A DNA stretch of 39,154 nt from Candidatus Woesearchaeota archaeon (GTDB taxonomy: Archaea > Nanobdellota > Nanobdellia > Woesearchaeales > UBA10216), in assembly GCA_002688315.1 (NCBI GenBank), contig NZCN01000006.1, positions 1 through 39,154 of the forward strand, written 5' to 3'. Below the pieces are notes generated by a model. That model ran no database searches. It was not told where the DNA came from and saw nothing but the letters and a program-made list of their open reading frames with translations. The position numbers were made by a program, and so were the translations under genes. Below, piece after piece: positions 4,000-14,862 of the stretch (within the stretch, counting starts at the first letter, position 1; each line of letters opens with the position of its first letter).

Positions 4000-4302
4000 T
4001 TAAGTAAACTCAATCTTTTTAATTCTGAAGCCAGAGCTTTGCGTTTGTGTTTTCTTGCAAACACTGCATTGATACCTTAAATCAGTCTTCTTTGTCTGCT
4101 TCTTTCCTGTCATCTTCCACTTGGTAACTGCAGGCTTTGAGTACCTTCCCAAGTTTCCTTTTCCCCTGGCTCTTCCACGGAGTTTTGCTCTCATTTTAGA
4201 ACCGTATTTAAGCGAGCTTGGGCTTTTTCTTTTAACTGAAGAAACTTTATGCTCTGTATGCTTATTACACTTAGGACAGTACTTTTTCCTGGTTTTAGGC
4301 AT
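4000..4302 (-). CDS. rpl44e: ribosomal protein eL42 (L44e)
   Basis: MPKTRKKYCPKCNKHTEHKVSSVK ... RYQCSVCKKTQTQSSGFRIKKIEF; CxxC zinc pairs. Confidence 0.95.
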   Translation of the reverse strand: MPKTRKKYCPKCNKHTEHKVSSVKRKSPSSLKYGSKMRAKLRGRARGKGNLGRYSKPAVTKWKMTGKKQTKKTDLRYQCSVCKKTQTQSSGFRIKKIEFT

Positions 4303-4435
4303 TTTCATAGAGTTATGAGAAAAATAGTGTGTTTAAAAATATATTGATTGTTTCCCTGTTTCAAAGTTTCATATAACATCTTACTTTATCATACGAACAG
4401 AAACTTTTTTATAGGAAATATAATTTTTATTTGGT

Positions 4436-5272
4436 ATGAAAGAGCGTGTTACTCTTACACTTGATTCCAACTTACTTAGAGAAATCGACCACAAAATAGA
4501 CGGGCATAGGATAAAAAGCAGATCCCATGCAATTGAACTCACTTTAATGCAGAGTTATGGCGCAAGTGTTCCTAAAACTGCGTTGATACTTGCAGGCGGC
4601 ATAGGAACAAGATTGCAGCCAATAACATTTGAAGTGCCAAAACCATTGCTGACTGTACATGACAAAACACTTTTGGAGCATTTGTTTGACTTATTCAAAA
4701 AATACGGAATAAAAAACATAATTCTGTCAATTGGCTATAAAGGAGAAAAAATTAAAGAAGCTATAGGTAATGGCAGAAAATTCGGAGTGAATGTAACTTA
4801 TGTCGAAGAGTCAAAAGCGCTAGGAACAGCAGGACCTCTAAAACTCGCTAAACCCTTTTTGACTGATACATTTATTGTTTCAAATGCAGACGAACTCAAA
4901 GAACTTGACCTGATGGATATGTATATTTTCCATAAAGAAAATAAGGCAACTGCAACCATAGCATTGGCTTCTGTTCAGGATCCGAGCGCTTACGGTGTTG
5001 CTAAGCTTCAAGGTAACCGCATACTTGAGTTTATTGAGAAACCAAAAAAAGAAAACGCACCTTCCAATCTTATAAATTCAGGAATATATATTCTTGAACC
5101 TGAAGTTATAGACCTGATACCAGACGGCTTTTCAATGCTTGAGAAAGATATTTTCCCAAGACTAGCACGCGAAGGAAGGCTTTACGGCTATCCTTTTTCC
5201 GGCCAGTGGTTAAATACAGGAACGCTAGAATTGTATGAGCAAGCGATAAAAGAATGGAAAGATATTTCGTGA
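4436..5272 (+). CDS. sugar-phosphate nucleotidyltransferase with N-terminal ribbon-helix-helix domain
   Basis: Residues 1-42 VTLTLDSNLLREIDHKIDGHRIKSRSHAIELTL are RHH-like, then LILAGGIGTRLQPITFEVPKPLLTV. Confidence 0.85.
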   Translation: MKERVTLTLDSNLLREIDHKIDGHRIKSRSHAIELTLMQSYGASVPKTALILAGGIGTRLQPITFEVPKPLLTVHDKTLLEHLFDLFKKYGIKNIILSIGYKGEKIKEAIGNGRKFGVNVTYVEESKALGTAGPLKLAKPFLTDTFIVSNADELKELDLMDMYIFHKENKATATIALASVQDPSAYGVAKLQGNRILEFIEKPKKENAPSNLINSGIYILEPEVIDLIPDGFSMLEKDIFPRLAREGRLYGYPFSGQWLNTGTLELYEQAIKEWKDIS

Positions 5273-5276
5273 TTCT

Positions 5277-6611
5277 ATGAGCCTATTCAAAGCGTATGAC
5301 ATACGGGGCGTATATGGTGAAGATTTAACAGATGAAATTGCATACAAATTTGGAAGAGCTTTTGTAAGCTTTCTTAAGTGCAAAGTTGTGGTAGTGGGAA
5401 GAGACATGCGCGATACTTCTCCAAAAATAGAAGAAAAACTTATCCAAGGCCTTACTGACCAAGGAGCAGATGTTGTAAGAATAGGTATGGCAACAACTCC
5501 AATGCTTTACTTTGCTACTGCAAAATTTGGGTATGATGCAGGAATAAACGTAACAGCCTCTCACAACCCAGCAAAGTACAACGGCTTCAAACTTGTACGA
5601 AAAGATGCTGTTCCGATAAGCGGAGACACTGGTATATATGAAATGCGCGACTTGGTTAATGAAGGGAAATTTGAAGATGTTGAGAAAAAAGGAAATGTAA
5701 CTGAGCGAGCTGGTGTTCTTGATGAATACATAAAAAACGCGCTTTCTTCTGTTGATGTTAGCAATCTAAAAAAATTCAAAATAGTTGTTGATACAGCCAA
5801 TGGAATGGGGGGATTAGTGATTCCTGATTTGTTGGGCAAAGTTCCGTGCGAATTTGAACACATGTTTCCGGAGTTGGATGGAACTTTCCCAAACCATGAA
5901 GCAAATCCTTTGAAAGCAGAAACTCTAAGATGGCTCCAGGCAGAAGTTAAAAACAAAAACGCAAACTTAGGAGTTGCGTTTGACGGCGATGCAGACCGCA
6001 TAGGCTTTGTTGATGAAAAAGGAGAAATAGTTCCAATGGACTTGTTCACAGCATTAATCGCAATGGAATTATTAAAGCACAACAAAGGAGCAAAAATACT
6101 TCACGACTTAAGATCAAGCAAAGCAGTTTCTGAAACCATAACCTCAAATGGAGGGCAGGCAATAGAAACAAGAGTAGGCCACTCATTCATAAAAGCGCAC
6201 ATGAGAGAAGAGAAGGCGGCATTTGCAGGAGAAGTCTCAGGACATTATTATCTTCAGAGCAATTACTACATAGAATCGCCTTACATTGTGATGCTGCTTC
6301 TGTTAAAGCTTATGACTGAAACAAACAAGCCGCTTTCAGAACTTATGAAGCCACTTAAAAAATATTTCAATACAGGAGAAGTTAATTTTGAAGTTAAAGA
6401 CAAAGAAGCTGCAATGGAAAAAGTAAAGCAAGCATTCCCAGACGCAAAGCGAGTTTACAATCTTGACGGGTTAAGCATGATATTTGATGACTGGTGGCTG
6501 AACTTACGGCCTTCCAATACTGAATCACTTCTTCGATTAAATCTAGAAGCAAACACTGCTGAGAAGAGAGACGAAATGAAAGAGAAAATTATTGGAATTC
6601 TAGAAAGCTGA
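5277..6611 (+). CDS. phosphomannomutase/phosphoglucomutase
   Basis: FKAYDIRGVYG, TASHNPAKYNGFK, DGDADR, GEVSGHYY, RPSNTESLLRLNLEA. Confidence 0.93.
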   Translation: MSLFKAYDIRGVYGEDLTDEIAYKFGRAFVSFLKCKVVVVGRDMRDTSPKIEEKLIQGLTDQGADVVRIGMATTPMLYFATAKFGYDAGINVTASHNPAKYNGFKLVRKDAVPISGDTGIYEMRDLVNEGKFEDVEKKGNVTERAGVLDEYIKNALSSVDVSNLKKFKIVVDTANGMGGLVIPDLLGKVPCEFEHMFPELDGTFPNHEANPLKAETLRWLQAEVKNKNANLGVAFDGDADRIGFVDEKGEIVPMDLFTALIAMELLKHNKGAKILHDLRSSKAVSETITSNGGQAIETRVGHSFIKAHMREEKAAFAGEVSGHYYLQSNYYIESPYIVMLLLLKLMTETNKPLSELMKPLKKYFNTGEVNFEVKDKEAAMEKVKQAFPDAKRVYNLDGLSMIFDDWWLNLRPSNTESLLRLNLEANTAEKRDEMKEKIIGILES

Positions 6612-9020: not shown

Positions 9021-11033
9021 TCATTCCATTCTTGTTCCGCTCCAGAGCTGCCATGACTCAGGGTCAGGCGCAGCTTCGCCGTACAAGAAGTAAGGCGGAG
9101 CATTTCTTCCGAAGTATGAGCGCTCAACATCAAGCCATGAATCACGTTGGCCCATCTCTAAGCCGTAAATAGAACTGCCGAAAAGCCTCCAGCCTCCAAG
9201 CATTGCCTTGTAATCCTGATGAGCAGGCTCAACAATTACATCTACTTCCCCTTTTTCTGTTTTGTCTTTCATTAACTGAATAAATTCTTTTATAGGAGCA
9301 TTTCCTTGTCCAGGAGTAACGTGCTCATCTTCCCAGCCGAAATTATCAGAAACGTGAACATGCCCGATTATGTTTTCGTCTTTCCATTCTTTTGCTTTAT
9401 CAAGATACCATTTTTTAAACCGCTCGTCAGTTTTTTCCATCGATTCGCCAGGATTGGACTTGAAGTATTTGCGCCACATGTTTGCGTGGCTGGTATCCCA
9501 TGTTGCTTTTATTCTGCTTTCAGCTTCTTTCCAAGCTTGTTCCTGGCTCATGCCGCGGTGTTCTTGCAAGCGTTTAGAAAGCATTTCTCTGGAGCCTAAT
9601 ACCATTCTCTTAACATCATCAGGATGTCCTCCATGAATCTCAGGAAAGAAATTTTCAATAGCAATGAACAAAGGCTTTTCGAATTTATCTCCGCCTCTAA
9701 CATCCCATCCCCACAATCCTTCTTTGGATGGTTTTTTCTCTCGGTCCATTGTATACATGGCAGCTCTGACAATTGTGTCTTCTGTTTTTTCCTCTGCGTA
9801 ATCTTGTATTGGGATTGTATTGTCTATGTTTTCCTGAACTTCTTTTGCTCTTGCATCGCTTGAAGCAGAAGATTCGTGAATAAATCTCATGTTCATTTCT
9901 TCCTGCTTTAGGCTTTCTTCAATCCATTCAGAAGGTAGTTTGCTTTCGCTTGGAAGGTAGTTGCCTCCTGTTCCTGCGAAACGTCCAACATTGAAGCTGT
10001 CCATAAGCTTCCATTGCTCTTCCACAGGCATGTCTTTTTCTACTTTTTTGTAAAATTCCAAAGCTTTTTTGAGTTTGTTGTAAGAGTTTCTGTTTTCTTC
10101 ATATGAGCGGGCATGAAATAATGAGCCTCCTTTAGCCTGCAATACCTGGTTTTCCATCTGAATCTTAAACCACATTTCTTCTGGTGTTCTTTGGTCTTCC
10201 GGATTGTCCTTATTCCATTGGTCTGCTTTTTCTTCAAAATCTTTCCAGTCTCGTTTTACTGCTTCGAAATCTGTTGTATCTTCGTTCCATTTCGGAACCC
10301 GTTTGAACAGTAATTGTGAATTAGAAGTGGTTTTTGGAATTTTATTGTAATCAACGTCTCTCCAAGAGTTTTCAGGGTCATCTGGATGATCTTCGTAAAC
10401 TGGTTCGTAGACAGGAACGTTTTTTCTTACAGGAGTTATTTGACCGTGGCGTTTGTCAACTAAATAGCGAATAGCTCGCTTATCTTCCTCTGGATACGCT
10501 TCAAAACCTTCATGTTGGAAATAATCGCGGATAGCTCTTGGATATTCTTGGGCGTGGACAACAACAGCCCCTCCATTAGTTGTATCAGCAGCAAAATCAA
10601 CTGCGCGCTGGATTTCGTGCAGGGTAGTTTCTCGAATAGCTTCGTCAAATTTGTCCTGCTGGAACCCAGCCAGGCTGCCTGCGTTTGGAGTTGCGTGAGT
10701 TGTTAGTTGAATCTTGTTTATTTTTGCAAGCTCTCTTATGTCAATACGCTCTTCTTTTCCAAACATTCCAGGAGTTGTATTGCCGCCTTGCATGCTTCCT
10801 TTTCCTTTTCCCATGAAACCAAGCTCAACTTTAGAAGCACCCTGGAAAACTTTTGCTTTTAACCCTTGGAGCTGGTCTCCAAATGGCGGAGCAGAAATAC
10901 CAATGTTTTCAGGGCTTAATCCGATTTCAGGAACAGTATCAGGAGACGCTTCTGCCGGAGGCTGCTCACCTGGCTTAAGGTCGATGTAATAGCCGCGGTC
11001 CATTGCAGTGTAATAGCTTTGGTTAAAAATCAT
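9021..11033 (-). CDS. large TIM-barrel protein, xylose isomerase/AP endonuclease family 2-like
   Basis: Strand-end motifs VVVHAQEYPRA, LFIAIENFFPEIHGG, NIIGHVHVSDNFGWEDEHVTPGQGN, VDVIVEPAHQD; long insertions. Confidence 0.7.
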   Translation of the reverse strand: MIFNQSYYTAMDRGYYIDLKPGEQPPAEASPDTVPEIGLSPENIGISAPPFGDQLQGLKAKVFQGASKVELGFMGKGKGSMQGGNTTPGMFGKEERIDIRELAKINKIQLTTHATPNAGSLAGFQQDKFDEAIRETTLHEIQRAVDFAADTTNGGAVVVHAQEYPRAIRDYFQHEGFEAYPEEDKRAIRYLVDKRHGQITPVRKNVPVYEPVYEDHPDDPENSWRDVDYNKIPKTTSNSQLLFKRVPKWNEDTTDFEAVKRDWKDFEEKADQWNKDNPEDQRTPEEMWFKIQMENQVLQAKGGSLFHARSYEENRNSYNKLKKALEFYKKVEKDMPVEEQWKLMDSFNVGRFAGTGGNYLPSESKLPSEWIEESLKQEEMNMRFIHESSASSDARAKEVQENIDNTIPIQDYAEEKTEDTIVRAAMYTMDREKKPSKEGLWGWDVRGGDKFEKPLFIAIENFFPEIHGGHPDDVKRMVLGSREMLSKRLQEHRGMSQEQAWKEAESRIKATWDTSHANMWRKYFKSNPGESMEKTDERFKKWYLDKAKEWKDENIIGHVHVSDNFGWEDEHVTPGQGNAPIKEFIQLMKDKTEKGEVDVIVEPAHQDYKAMLGGWRLFGSSIYGLEMGQRDSWLDVERSYFGRNAPPYFLYGEAAPDPESWQLWSGTRME

Positions 11034-11036
11034 TTT

Positions 11037-11627
11037 TTACCAAGGTTGTTGTTCTTCTCTTCTTTTTTTCTCTTTCTCTTCTTCTCTTTTCACATAACTG
11101 TCAGACACGTCTCCTCCTGTTTCCCTTTCATACATTTGTTGGGGTCCATCAGAAGCTCCTGTTCTGTAAACTTGTTGAGAGCCTTCTCCGCTAGTGTCTG
11201 CGCCTGTTGTTGTTACCTTAGAACTGTAATCCACTTTTGCTTTTGCGTCTTCAATAGCTTGGCCGTATATCGGCTTATGGTCTATTTTTCCTTTTTCTTT
11301 GGCTTCACTATCAGCCAGCTCCTCAAGGTTTTGCATTTCTGCTTCAGCAACAGTTTCTCCTAACTCTTCTATTTTTTTATCTCCTTCAAACCTTGCAGTC
11401 TTGAATATGCTTTTCTCTTCAGCAGTTGCAAGTTGTGAAATGTCACGAGCTTTTACCTGCTCTATGGGAGCGTGTTTTTTTTCTTCAGCATCTCCTATCT
11501 CGCGCATAGAGTCTCTAATCAGAGATTCAGCTTCTTCTATTTCACGCTTTCTTCCTTCTTCAATCTCTTTTAAGCGCTTGATTCGCTCTTCAGGATCCAA
11601 TTTTTTTATTTCTTCGAGTTCACTCAT
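11037..11627 (-). CDS. charged coiled-coil hypothetical protein
   Basis: 196 aa, E/K/R-rich; 3-nt spacing to the TIM-barrel gene. Confidence 0.7.
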   Translation of the reverse strand: MSELEEIKKLDPEERIKRLKEIEEGRKREIEEAESLIRDSMREIGDAEEKKHAPIEQVKARDISQLATAEEKSIFKTARFEGDKKIEELGETVAEAEMQNLEELADSEAKEKGKIDHKPIYGQAIEDAKAKVDYSSKVTTTGADTSGEGSQQVYRTGASDGPQQMYERETGGDVSDSYVKREEEKEKKRREEQQPW

Positions 11628-11628
11628 T

Positions 11629-13149
11629 TTACCAAGTCATTAAACCATGCATTTTCTTATAATTTTTGTATGTTTGGAATATTGAACGCTTAAGGTCTCT
11701 TTTCATTGATGCTATTTGTAGTGTGTCATCTACATCTTTTCCTTTTTTAGGCCCTCCTTTCTTTTTTAATGAAGGTATGCCTTCTGTTAATGGTGAAACT
11801 ATTTCTTTAATTCCTCCTAGCACTCCTACAAAAGGCTCGGCAGCTCCTTTTACTGTTTCAGCCAATTCATTTGGCTCTTTCTTTTCTTTTTTCTCCTCTT
11901 CAAATATCTCGCCGCCTTCTTTCAAGTAAGTTTTGAGCTCTTCTCCAAGGCTGTCAAGAGCTTCTTTTATTGATTCGTTAACACTGCTGAGAAGATTTAA
12001 ATCTTCCTCTTCCTTCATGTTGATATAATTTTTTATCTGGTCCTCGCTCCAAACATAGCCGCGCAAAATCAGGTCGAACTTTCCTGTGTGCATAGGCCCT
12101 CGTTGATAGCCTTCCTGTACATAACTTAGCGCAGGCCTTGTTCTGTAGTACATGTGCACTAAAACACAGGGCTTGTACTTGCTCTTGGTCTCCTTATACG
12201 TAAGCACTTCAATTTCAACTAAAGCGCCTTCAAAAGCAGTTATCAAGTCAGGCATGTCGCTCCTTACAAGCTTTTCAGCCATTTGCAATCTTTGAATGTT
12301 TCTTAAGTAAGGCTTAATCCAGCCCATGTAAAGCTTTATGGTGTCATAGTGCTGCTTGAGATATTTTATAGTGAACTTGCGCCTGGTTTTGAGTTCCTGA
12401 TAAGTTCGGAGCTTCCACATATAGTATTGGGTGAGCTTGCGTTTCAAAACTTCTTTTACTTTCTCATTGAATTTTAGTCCGTCAACTGCTTTGTCAACAT
12501 TGCTTACCACTCTGTTTGTTGCTGAATCAAAATTTTCAGCAGCCACTTCGTGAAGCCCAATGTCATCTGCTCTTACTCTAAAAAACAAGTCAGGAAGAAT
12601 AGTAAAGCCTACTGTCTGCGAAAGGCCGTAAACAGAAGCAGCATTCTTAACACCGCCTTCAACCTGGTCAACCCATATTCCCTTTAGCGTAATTTCAGAG
12701 CCAGAAGCGTCTTCATCTTTCTTCTTTGCGTTGCGGTTAAATGTGTGATTGTAATATCCAAGGCGCTCATCAATAATTCTAAGCTCACGAACAATCTGGA
12801 AAAGCGCTTTAAGCATTTCACTTATCCCTTTCAAAAATTGGGCAGCTTTATCCTGCTGCATTCCAATACGCTGCTCTCCAAGCCCAAAAAAAGAAGAGCC
12901 TTCAGAAGCAGCATTTATGTCTGTAATCTTGACAGCCCTGTTATAGCTCCAGCCATACTTGAGTTCATCAATTGTCCAGAAATATGCTTCTTCTATTGGA
13001 AGATTTATTGCTTCGGTAACAAGCCTGTAAAAATATTCTGGCTTTGGAAAGCCTGTTTTTTCCTTTACTCCGCTCACTAGCTCAGCTTCCTCCTCTGCTT
13101 GAAAGAAAAACTTCTTCAATAATTCCTTTTTTTTATCTTCGTCTGCCAT
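11629..13149 (-). CDS. uncharacterised 506-aa protein heading a three-gene operon
   Basis: Long ORF with aligned promoter (TATA-like cttatatatt) just upstream; no family recognised. Confidence 0.75.
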   Translation of the reverse strand: MADEDKKKELLKKFFFQAEEEAELVSGVKEKTGFPKPEYFYRLVTEAINLPIEEAYFWTIDELKYGWSYNRAVKITDINAASEGSSFFGLGEQRIGMQQDKAAQFLKGISEMLKALFQIVRELRIIDERLGYYNHTFNRNAKKKDEDASGSEITLKGIWVDQVEGGVKNAASVYGLSQTVGFTILPDLFFRVRADDIGLHEVAAENFDSATNRVVSNVDKAVDGLKFNEKVKEVLKRKLTQYYMWKLRTYQELKTRRKFTIKYLKQHYDTIKLYMGWIKPYLRNIQRLQMAEKLVRSDMPDLITAFEGALVEIEVLTYKETKSKYKPCVLVHMYYRTRPALSYVQEGYQRGPMHTGKFDLILRGYVWSEDQIKNYINMKEEEDLNLLSSVNESIKEALDSLGEELKTYLKEGGEIFEEEKKEKKEPNELAETVKGAAEPFVGVLGGIKEIVSPLTEGIPSLKKKGGPKKGKDVDDTLQIASMKRDLKRSIFQTYKNYKKMHGLMTW

Positions 13150-13194
13150 TTTCTCTTAATATGCAAATTTGTATACTAATATATAAGTATTTTT

Positions 13195-14862
13195 CTATGC
13201 TGGGTGGTCATGCCCTAATATTTTACGCTTGTGAAGCTCTTTCATGTGGTTGAATTTGTGCTGCATTATGCTTGGAATATTGTTGAAATTTTCAAGAAGC
13301 AATGCAACATGCTCTCCTCCAAGGAAATGAGGCAGTATAACATAATTTGCTCCAAAATTATAAAGCTTTAAAGCATTTTCAACATGGTTTGAGGTTACTA
13401 TTGCAACAGCACGGCCTTTTTTAGCTTCTTTTATGAGGAGCTCATTCTCGTAATTAGTTGGTATGGTGCTTACAACAAGCTCAGCATTATCTATGTTCAG
13501 TTTTTTTATGAATTCCACATTCCCTATGTCTCCATAAATGCACGGTATCTTTTGTTTTTTAAGCTTGGCAACAACATCAGGGTCAAAATCAACAATAACA
13601 AAAGACTTTCCAAGATCTTTTAATTTGCGGGCAATGCTATAGCCTATCCTGTTGTAACCGCATAATATAACATCAAACTTTGACTTGGGAATTTGCTCAA
13701 CACCAGCAGGCTTGAAATGGAAAATTCCTTTGAGAGTGTTGTAAACTTTTTCATCATACTTGACAACATAAGTTGTTGTAGTTATTGTAACAGCAGCAAC
13801 AGCTATTATAATTGCGCTAACTTGCCCTGCTATGTGGCCTAAGGAAACTCCCAACGCAATGATTATGAGAGAAAACTCGCTAATCTGCCCTGTAGGCAAG
13901 CCTGTCATTATTGAAATCTTCTTGTTATATCCAAGCAAAGAACTCATTAAAACCACTATGATTGTCTTCCCTATAATTGCAAATAATGAAAAAACTATTA
14001 TTGGAACAAGCATCGAGCTAAATGAAGGCAAAACAAACTGCATTCCTAGAGAAACAAAAAAGATTGTAGCGAAGAAATCTCTTAAAGACTTAACTCTGCT
14101 GACTACCTCGAGCTTGTAAGAAGAAGACGCAAGGGTAACTCCAGCAACAAACGCGCCTATAGCAATTGAATAACCCAGAAAATTTGCAAAAAATGCAAAC
14201 GAGAAAAGCCAGGAAACTGCAGATAAAAACAGCAACTCAGTTGACCTTGCTGAAATTTTAAACACAACAGGAAGCACAGTTTTTGCAGCAACAAAAGCAA
14301 CAATGAAAATTAAAGCACCTTTAGCAAGCGATAAAGCAATAAGCTGATAGCTCTGTCCAAGGCTTGGAAGCAAAGCAAGCACTAATATTGCAACCACATC
14401 CTGAATCAGCAAAATTCCAAGAATAATTTTTCCATAAAGCGTATCCAAGCTTCCCCTGTCGCTTAGTAACTTAATTACAATCATAGTGCTGCTTAAAGTA
14501 AGCGCAGCTGCAATGTAAAAAGACGCAATTGTACTGAAGCCAAGCAATGCAGCAATAACAAAACTAATTCCGCCAGTAAGTGCTACTTGCCCTGTTCCTA
14601 TGATTCCTGCTTTCAAACCTAAACTGCGAATCTTATTGAAATCTATCTCTAAGCCCACTATGAAAAGAACAAAAGCAATTCCAAGCTCTGACAGAAGCGC
14701 AATAGTCTCTGTGCTGGTAATAAGCCCTGTAAGGTAAGGCCCGACAATAAAACCAGCAATTATGTATCCCAAAATCATTGGCTGCTTAATTAAACGGGCA
14801 GCATAAGCAAGCAACGTGGCAACAATAATTACAGTTCCGATTTCAAACATCAAGTTAGCCAT
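13195..14862 (-). CDS. CPA2-family Na+(K+)/H+ antiporter with C-terminal TrkA-N domain (Kef-like)
   Basis: PMILGYIIAGFIVGPYLTG, FVLFIVGLEIDF, TLSSTMIVIKLL; FDVILCGYNRIGYSIARKL..VIVDFD. Confidence 0.92.
   Translation of the reverse strand: MANLMFEIGTVIIVATLLAYAARLIKQPMILGYIIAGFIVGPYLTGLITSTETIALLSELGIAFVLFIVGLEIDFNKIRSLGLKAGIIGTGQVALTGGISFVIAALLGFSTIASFYIAAALTLSSTMIVIKLLSDRGSLDTLYGKIILGILLIQDVVAILVLALLPSLGQSYQLIALSLAKGALIFIVAFVAAKTVLPVVFKISARSTELLFLSAVSWLFSFAFFANFLGYSIAIGAFVAGVTLASSSYKLEVVSRVKSLRDFFATIFFVSLGMQFVLPSFSSMLVPIIVFSLFAIIGKTIIVVLMSSLLGYNKKISIMTGLPTGQISEFSLIIIALGVSLGHIAGQVSAIIIAVAAVTITTTTYVVKYDEKVYNTLKGIFHFKPAGVEQIPKSKFDVILCGYNRIGYSIARKLKDLGKSFVIVDFDPDVVAKLKKQKIPCIYGDIGNVEFIKKLNIDNAELVVSTIPTNYENELLIKEAKKGRAVAIVTSNHVENALKLYNFGANYVILPHFLGGEHVALLLENFNNIPSIMQHKFNHMKELHKRKILGHDHPA

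Follow-up and report, generated by a model that had tools for sequence, protein, structure and literature searches.

Results

A nucleotidyltransferase fused to a ribbon-helix-helix domain

The window, which is the whole stretch of 39,154 nt of Candidatus Woesearchaeota DNA analysed here, carries on its forward strand an uninterrupted ORF of 278 amino acids with an ATG start (positions 4436-5272). The first-pass annotation had read this ORF as a ribbon-helix-helix (RHH) domain joined to a sugar nucleotidyltransferase, and this architecture was borne out by Pfam, by a profile match to NikR and by AlphaFold2. The RHH domain comprises residues 1-45 (4436..4570, + strand); Pfam RHH_1 matched residues 4-38 above its gathering score, at 1.7e-4 with the whole protein and at 1.3e-5 using the first 48 residues alone. 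A profile of 18 N-termini found E. coli NikR as its best PDB match (1.5e-6), followed by the antitoxin Rv0298 and, weakly, CopG and other RHH proteins; the profile was required for the NikR match, as the RHH alone gave no match as a single-sequence PDB query. The domain has a strand, MKERVTLTLD, with R4, T6 and T8, and a helix B starting KSRSHAIE, in keeping with the superfamily, which is characterised by a strand-helix-helix of about 45 residues with helix B beginning RS(x)A(I). In the AlphaFold2 model (mean pLDDT 92.5; 77-90 at the N-terminus), an extended stretch (residues 1-10) and two helices (11-20 and 29-40) precede the NTase fold, so that the N-terminus models with RHH topology and not as something else. 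The RHH strand forms in the dimer only, and the lack of a strand in this monomer model is therefore expected. By alignment and profile, the RHH is a real and conserved domain of the DNA-binding kind.

The remainder of the protein, residues 48-278 (4577..5269, + strand), is a sugar-1-phosphate nucleotidyltransferase (NTase) domain, identified by Pfam NTP_transferase (PF00483, residues 49-273; 3.8e-46), Foldseek and active-site alignment. All NTase motifs are intact, namely the GGxGTRLxPxT...PKP loop (here GGIGTRLQPIT...PKP), the metal-binding Asp (D152), EKP (201-203) and N260 as second metal ligand. GMPPB and tlr0611 were the best Foldseek matches of the model, which is devoid of a C-terminal left-handed beta-helix, and the best NCBIfam match was NF052502, a mannose-1-phosphate guanylyltransferase, at 165 bits against a cut-off of 440.

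The phosphomannomutase/phosphoglucomutase gene reported 4 nt past the fusion ORF does start there (5277..6611, + strand; Pfam PGM_PMM I-IV; NCBIfam PRK09542 at 2.5e-140, below its cut-off), and is probably co-transcribed with it. On the other side lies the divergent gene for ribosomal protein L44e (4000..4308, - strand; Pfam Ribosomal_L44), and the intergenic region common to both genes contains a predicted operator. The window also encodes GINS, class I LysRS, EF-1 alpha and FttA, which together with L44e mark the DNA as that of a Woesearchaeota-like archaeon. A run of large genes on the minus strand (9021-14862) comprises a Na+/H+ exchanger with TrkA_N, a 506-aa ORF without Pfam match and a protein that ends in a xylose-isomerase-like barrel.

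Distribution and conservation of the fusion

When homologues with the same fusion were counted, some 86 genomes in a sample of 279 from this phylum (Woesearchaeota and relatives) had the full-length protein, RHH included, a figure blurred by MAG incompleteness and wrong starts. Protein searches placed its closest named relatives in Candidatus Woesearchaeota MAGs, with full-length fusions at 85-87% identity in close relatives and 45-75% further out. Nearly all homologues keep MKERVTLTLD...IKNRSHAIE and start at the same MKER, not at a Met or Val of the NTase domain; M1, T8, D18, R29, S30 and E34 do not vary at all among 18 N-termini that were aligned. Judged by this conservation, the fusion is old and common, and neither a chance event nor a mis-called start. 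A mis-annotated start or upstream read-through was considered separately and ruled out, since the homologues share the Met and the TATA box suits a leaderless start.

The same protein searches returned homologues on contigs from Altiarchaeota, Patescibacteria and Aminicenantes bins. The genes in an Aminicenantes bin (L007) and a Patescibacteria bin (L019) are RHH-NTases of archaeal type, and may reflect misbinning or transfer. A Pacearchaeota locus (L018:4653-5687) encodes a related NTase in which an N-terminal domain, cupin-like by eye, replaces the RHH, with a second, standalone NTase copy nearby.

A predicted tandem operator next to the promoter

The predicted operator (4369..4394, + strand) consists of three half-sites with a 10-bp period, TCATAT (4369-4374), TCTTAC (4379-4384) and TCATAC (4389-4394), separated by AACA and TTTA. 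Its best 16-mer scored 23.6 bits, a value that none of 5000 Markov-shuffled versions of the intergenic stretch reached, with a matrix that was derived from family upstream regions and whose training set contains the window site and close relatives. Its own genome contains just one other exact TCWTACNNNNTCATAC match, and in relatives the site has the same position and spacing. A probable archaeal TATA box, TTTTTATA (4406..4413, + strand), follows 11 bp past the operator and 30 nt before the ATG, a position that would fit a leaderless transcript beginning with the RHH. This order of operator and TATA box recurs in 24 of the 29 homologues with a site, the gap being mostly 11-12 bp. The region 4380-4436 that had been proposed as the promoter covers the operator in part, since the whole site begins at 4369. 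A search of the intergenic region for a palindromic operator revealed weak inverted repeats only, and none of the sigma-70 promoters and terminators sought rose above shuffles, the models for these not being applicable to archaea. At 2 mismatches a scan of the own genome was not enriched (131 matches versus 160 in the control), and therefore only exact or near-exact sites are informative.

Alignment of upstream regions placed TCATACTTTATCATAC-like tandem half-sites before genes of the catalytic branch of RHH-NTases to which the window fusion belongs (branch A). In the 279 genomes, the exact tandem TCATACNNNNTCATAC (TCATAC-N4-TCATAC) occurs at 66 sites versus 43 for the reversed control. Comparison of the coordinates of motif sites and branch A genes showed that 22 of these 66 sites precede a branch A gene by no more than 150 bp, where about 0.003 would be expected (66 sites x 86 genes x 150 bp over about 0.29 Gb). 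The site was present in 29 of 51 RHH-bearing members versus none of 8 NTases without RHH (p = 0.003, kinship ignored). These site-less standalone NTases are mostly nested in or near branch A, no separate RHH gene was found beside standalone NTases in the stretches examined, and the standalone NTase that adjoins a dead fusion in genome G017 is one of the eight. The other 22 of the 51 family members had no exact-form site within 90 bp; some carry TATTAC-type variants, and for some the MAG start may be wrong. The E. coli NikR operator is GTATGA-N16-TCATAC, and the TCATAC half-site of the fusion operators is the NikR half-site (PMC7055735).

Paralogues that have lost the catalytic loop

With a branch B paralogue from the same genome (G000:C2:14669-15460) as query, further RHH-NTase branches were found, and 104 RHH-NTases were aligned with 18 standalone NTases. 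Branch A shows GGxGTRLxPxT...PK, D152 and EKP, while the GTRLxPxT loop is gone in branches B, C and D and in five members of branch A. The RHH signature R29-S30, nearly invariant in the alignment, is kept in these loop-less members (as K-S in one D group). In the tree, B, C and D fall together on one side (99/90), and the five branch A pseudo-enzymes form one clade inside A (97/97). A B-type protein was predicted to have both the RHH and the NTase fold (pLDDT 92.2). The clade of the window fusion has Asn as second metal ligand (WLNTG) where most others have Asp; as GlmU, an active enzyme, uses Asn at this position, the residue is no argument for inactivity.

The neighbourhoods of these branches differ. 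Branch B genes are divergent to UDP-glucose dehydrogenase, NTase and epimerase genes in most of 20 loci, the genome of the window included. The branch B pattern TCTTACCNTTATCCTACYTTAT, with up to 1 mismatch, gave 30 matches and 0 in the control, 24 of them adjoining a B gene; in the own genome the site (G000:C2:15610-15631) lies between the divergent promoters of the B gene and UDP-glucose dehydrogenase. RHH strand residues and half-sites vary together, R-T-T with TCATAC in branch A and K-S-T with TCTTAC or TCCTAC in branch B. Branch C genes have on one side genes for a SIS-domain protein, a PfkB-type kinase, a HAD phosphatase and a cytidylyltransferase-like protein, and on the other a GT9 heptosyltransferase, a GT2 and an STT3 oligosaccharyltransferase; by our reading the SIS-domain protein would be a phosphoheptose isomerase, and the block an ADP-heptose pathway. 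This pathway looks complete in the branch C loci of Woesearchaeota relatives (L164-L177). One D group has nucleotide-sugar epimerases and a cupin-like protein as neighbours, and the other stands near housekeeping genes. In genus g129 (L178-L182), divergent RHH-pseudoNTases were seen away from sugar genes, close to genes that by eye are proteasome-like and tRNA-synthetase-like.

In G017 (L223:5320-8193), an RHH-pseudoNTase, a separate, active-looking NTase without RHH and a phosphomannomutase share one operon. By its gene content, this operon is a natural split of regulator and enzyme. A phosphomannomutase homologue also lies 3' of the branch A fusion in most of 28 loci.

Other candidate targets

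Exact TCATACTTTATCATAC occurs at 12 sites in the 279 genomes, 6 of them upstream of branch A fusion genes. The remainder precede genes for GAPDH (G000, G067 and G222; in one of these three a small ORF stands between the site and GAPDH), enolase (G121), PFK (G142) and H+-pyrophosphatase (G008). With one mismatch, 46 sites were found versus 21 in the control; about 23 are before branch A genes, one is before a branch C gene, about 10 precede central-metabolism genes (among them FBP aldolase/phosphatase, GlpX FBPase and PMM) or the small ORF, and 12 are others, several of them intragenic.

Among GlpX FBPase genes collected independently of the site, 9 of 21 carry it, compared with a background of 17 of 838 ORFs that takes in family genes. 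About half of these nine sites are common to a divergent fusion gene, and at four GlpX loci (L336, L339, L340 and L349) no divergent fusion neighbour was seen. Before GAPDH the site was present in just 3 of 24 genomes, so that the predicted metabolic regulon is patchy. The second exact site of the window's genome (G000:C10:14602) precedes an ORF of 36-39 codons and then GAPDH; in the sister species G063, the site and the small ORF are kept and that GAPDH is absent. This small ORF, of about 36-45 aa (L225:1526-1645, near the site in G000:C10; L370:2518-2670, minus strand), has the conserved motif EFMxKKxxKxEQxxFLxQxLFG and lies directly 3' of the TCATAC array; no further copies were found in the loci examined.

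Discussion

Taken together, the gene structure, its conservation and the operator make it quite probable that the fusion is a trigger enzyme, at once enzyme and regulator, and represents the catalytic branch of a larger family of sensors and regulators. By sequence and model, an intact enzyme domain is joined to a DNA-binding domain, and conservation and genome-wide enrichment place a predicted operator at the gene's own promoter. In the mechanism that we propose, the phosphomannomutase of the same operon would supply the sugar-1-phosphate, which the NTase domain would convert with an NTP to a sugar nucleotide, GDP-mannose being our best guess. The RHH domains of two chains would pair to form a DNA-binding ribbon that reads the tandem TCATAC half-sites shortly before the operon's own BRE/TATA. 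Substrate or product in the NTase pocket would then alter the RHH-pair geometry and so switch the operon and, in several relatives, glycolysis and gluconeogenesis genes too. We infer that the pocket acts as the sensor because the dead branches keep the NTase fold beside matching sugar-nucleotide genes; these branches, having lost catalysis, would now be local regulators that sense sugar nucleotides.

As to the direction of regulation, TrmBL1 activates from a site upstream of the TATA box and represses from one downstream (PMC4706686). By the same rule, branch A would activate itself and, in several relatives, GlpX and GAPDH, and it would repress PFK and enolase, the sites of which are close before the start codon.

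The coupling of sugar-nucleotide synthesis to transcription by autoregulation, one of two roles suggested in the first-pass annotation, is thus well supported computationally by a conserved RHH of the DNA-binding type and an operator-like array. Its other suggestion, an RHH used for dimerisation, survives as a part of this mechanism and not as an alternative to it, because RHH domains dimerise anyway. That the RHH merely dimerises or tetramerises the enzyme, with no role on DNA, we regard as highly improbable. In favour of such a reading, RHH domains always dimerise, that of PutA mediates dimerisation (PMC5293562), and the fusion does without the beta-helix that oligomerises many of its relatives. 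Against this, the operator arrays, at fixed promoter spacing, come and go with the RHH, being absent where related NTases are without it, and the RHH is kept, with predicted operators of its own, in dead-enzyme paralogues without the catalytic loop; for both reasons dimerisation is unlikely as the sole role. In addition, R4, T6 and T8, which we take to be the DNA-facing residues in CopG/NikR, are conserved in the catalytic branch.

The fusion could also be mainly a regulator, its NTase a sensor with little or no catalysis. Such a reading would agree with the loss of catalysis in B, C and D, which recurred within A, and with the Asn that replaces Asp at the second metal position in the window's clade. 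It is nevertheless unlikely, as the nucleotide-binding loop, the PKP lysine, D152 and EKP are intact, the Asn is also that of active GlmU, and a phosphomannomutase lies in the same operon. The arrays might be read by some other RHH regulator, NikR-like or a free CopG, with the fusion a mere target. NikR does use the same half-site (PMC7055735), and G213, in which the fusion was not detected, has sites at GlpX and PMM; this genome, however, is incomplete (93%), site presence tracks RHH presence in close relatives, and the branches pair with distinct operator variants as described above, all of which makes another binder quite doubtful. The trigger enzyme is our preferred explanation.

On a wider reading we are evenly divided: the RHH-NTases may form an undescribed family of DPANN regulators that sense through their NTase domains, with a broad branch A and at least 3 dead branches that are cluster-specific. 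Branch A, as enzyme and regulator, would then link sugar-nucleotide demand to glycolysis and gluconeogenesis (GAPDH, FBPases, enolase, PFK and H+-pyrophosphatase), and the dead branches would act on UDP-glucose dehydrogenase, on ADP-heptose synthesis with heptosyltransferase and oligosaccharyltransferase, and on nucleotide-sugar epimerases. The RHH-NTases would be living intermediates in the passage from enzyme to transcription factor, from the active fusion, through a dead fusion that shares its operon with a separate active enzyme (G017), to fully dead branches serving other pathways. To our knowledge, very little is known of metabolic regulation in DPANN archaea; here sequence alone suffices to name the fusion, its predicted operator, the promoter geometry and candidate targets, all of them testable in vitro. 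A search of the open full-text literature found no paper describing the family.

Among known systems, NadR (HTH, NMN adenylyltransferase and kinase) likewise joins a regulator to a nucleotidyl-transferring enzyme from the pathway under its control, but it has an HTH in place of the RHH and an unrelated NTase fold, and it is bacterial and serves NAD metabolism. The GMPPB/ManC-like NTases share the fold and motifs of the catalytic domain; unlike the fusion, they have no RHH and possess a C-terminal left-handed beta-helix. PutA resembles the fusion in having, on a metabolic enzyme, an N-terminal RHH that mediates both dimerisation and autogenous repression (PMC5293562). It differs in that its enzyme domains are flavin dehydrogenases, in that it is bacterial, and in that it switches by moving to the membrane. 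We know of no family of dead-enzyme regulators that accompanies PutA. NikR is the closest solved RHH by profile and has the identical half-site, GTATGA/TCATAC (PMC7055735), whereas its sensor domain binds nickel and its operator is one palindrome with a 16-bp spacer, that of the fusion being a tandem direct repeat with a 10-bp period. Finally, TrmB, TrmBL1 and Tgr of the euryarchaea offer a precedent for archaeal sugar-sensing control of glycolysis and gluconeogenesis genes (PMC4706686), although these regulators combine winged-helix and sugar-binding domains, have no NTase and read the palindromic TGM site.
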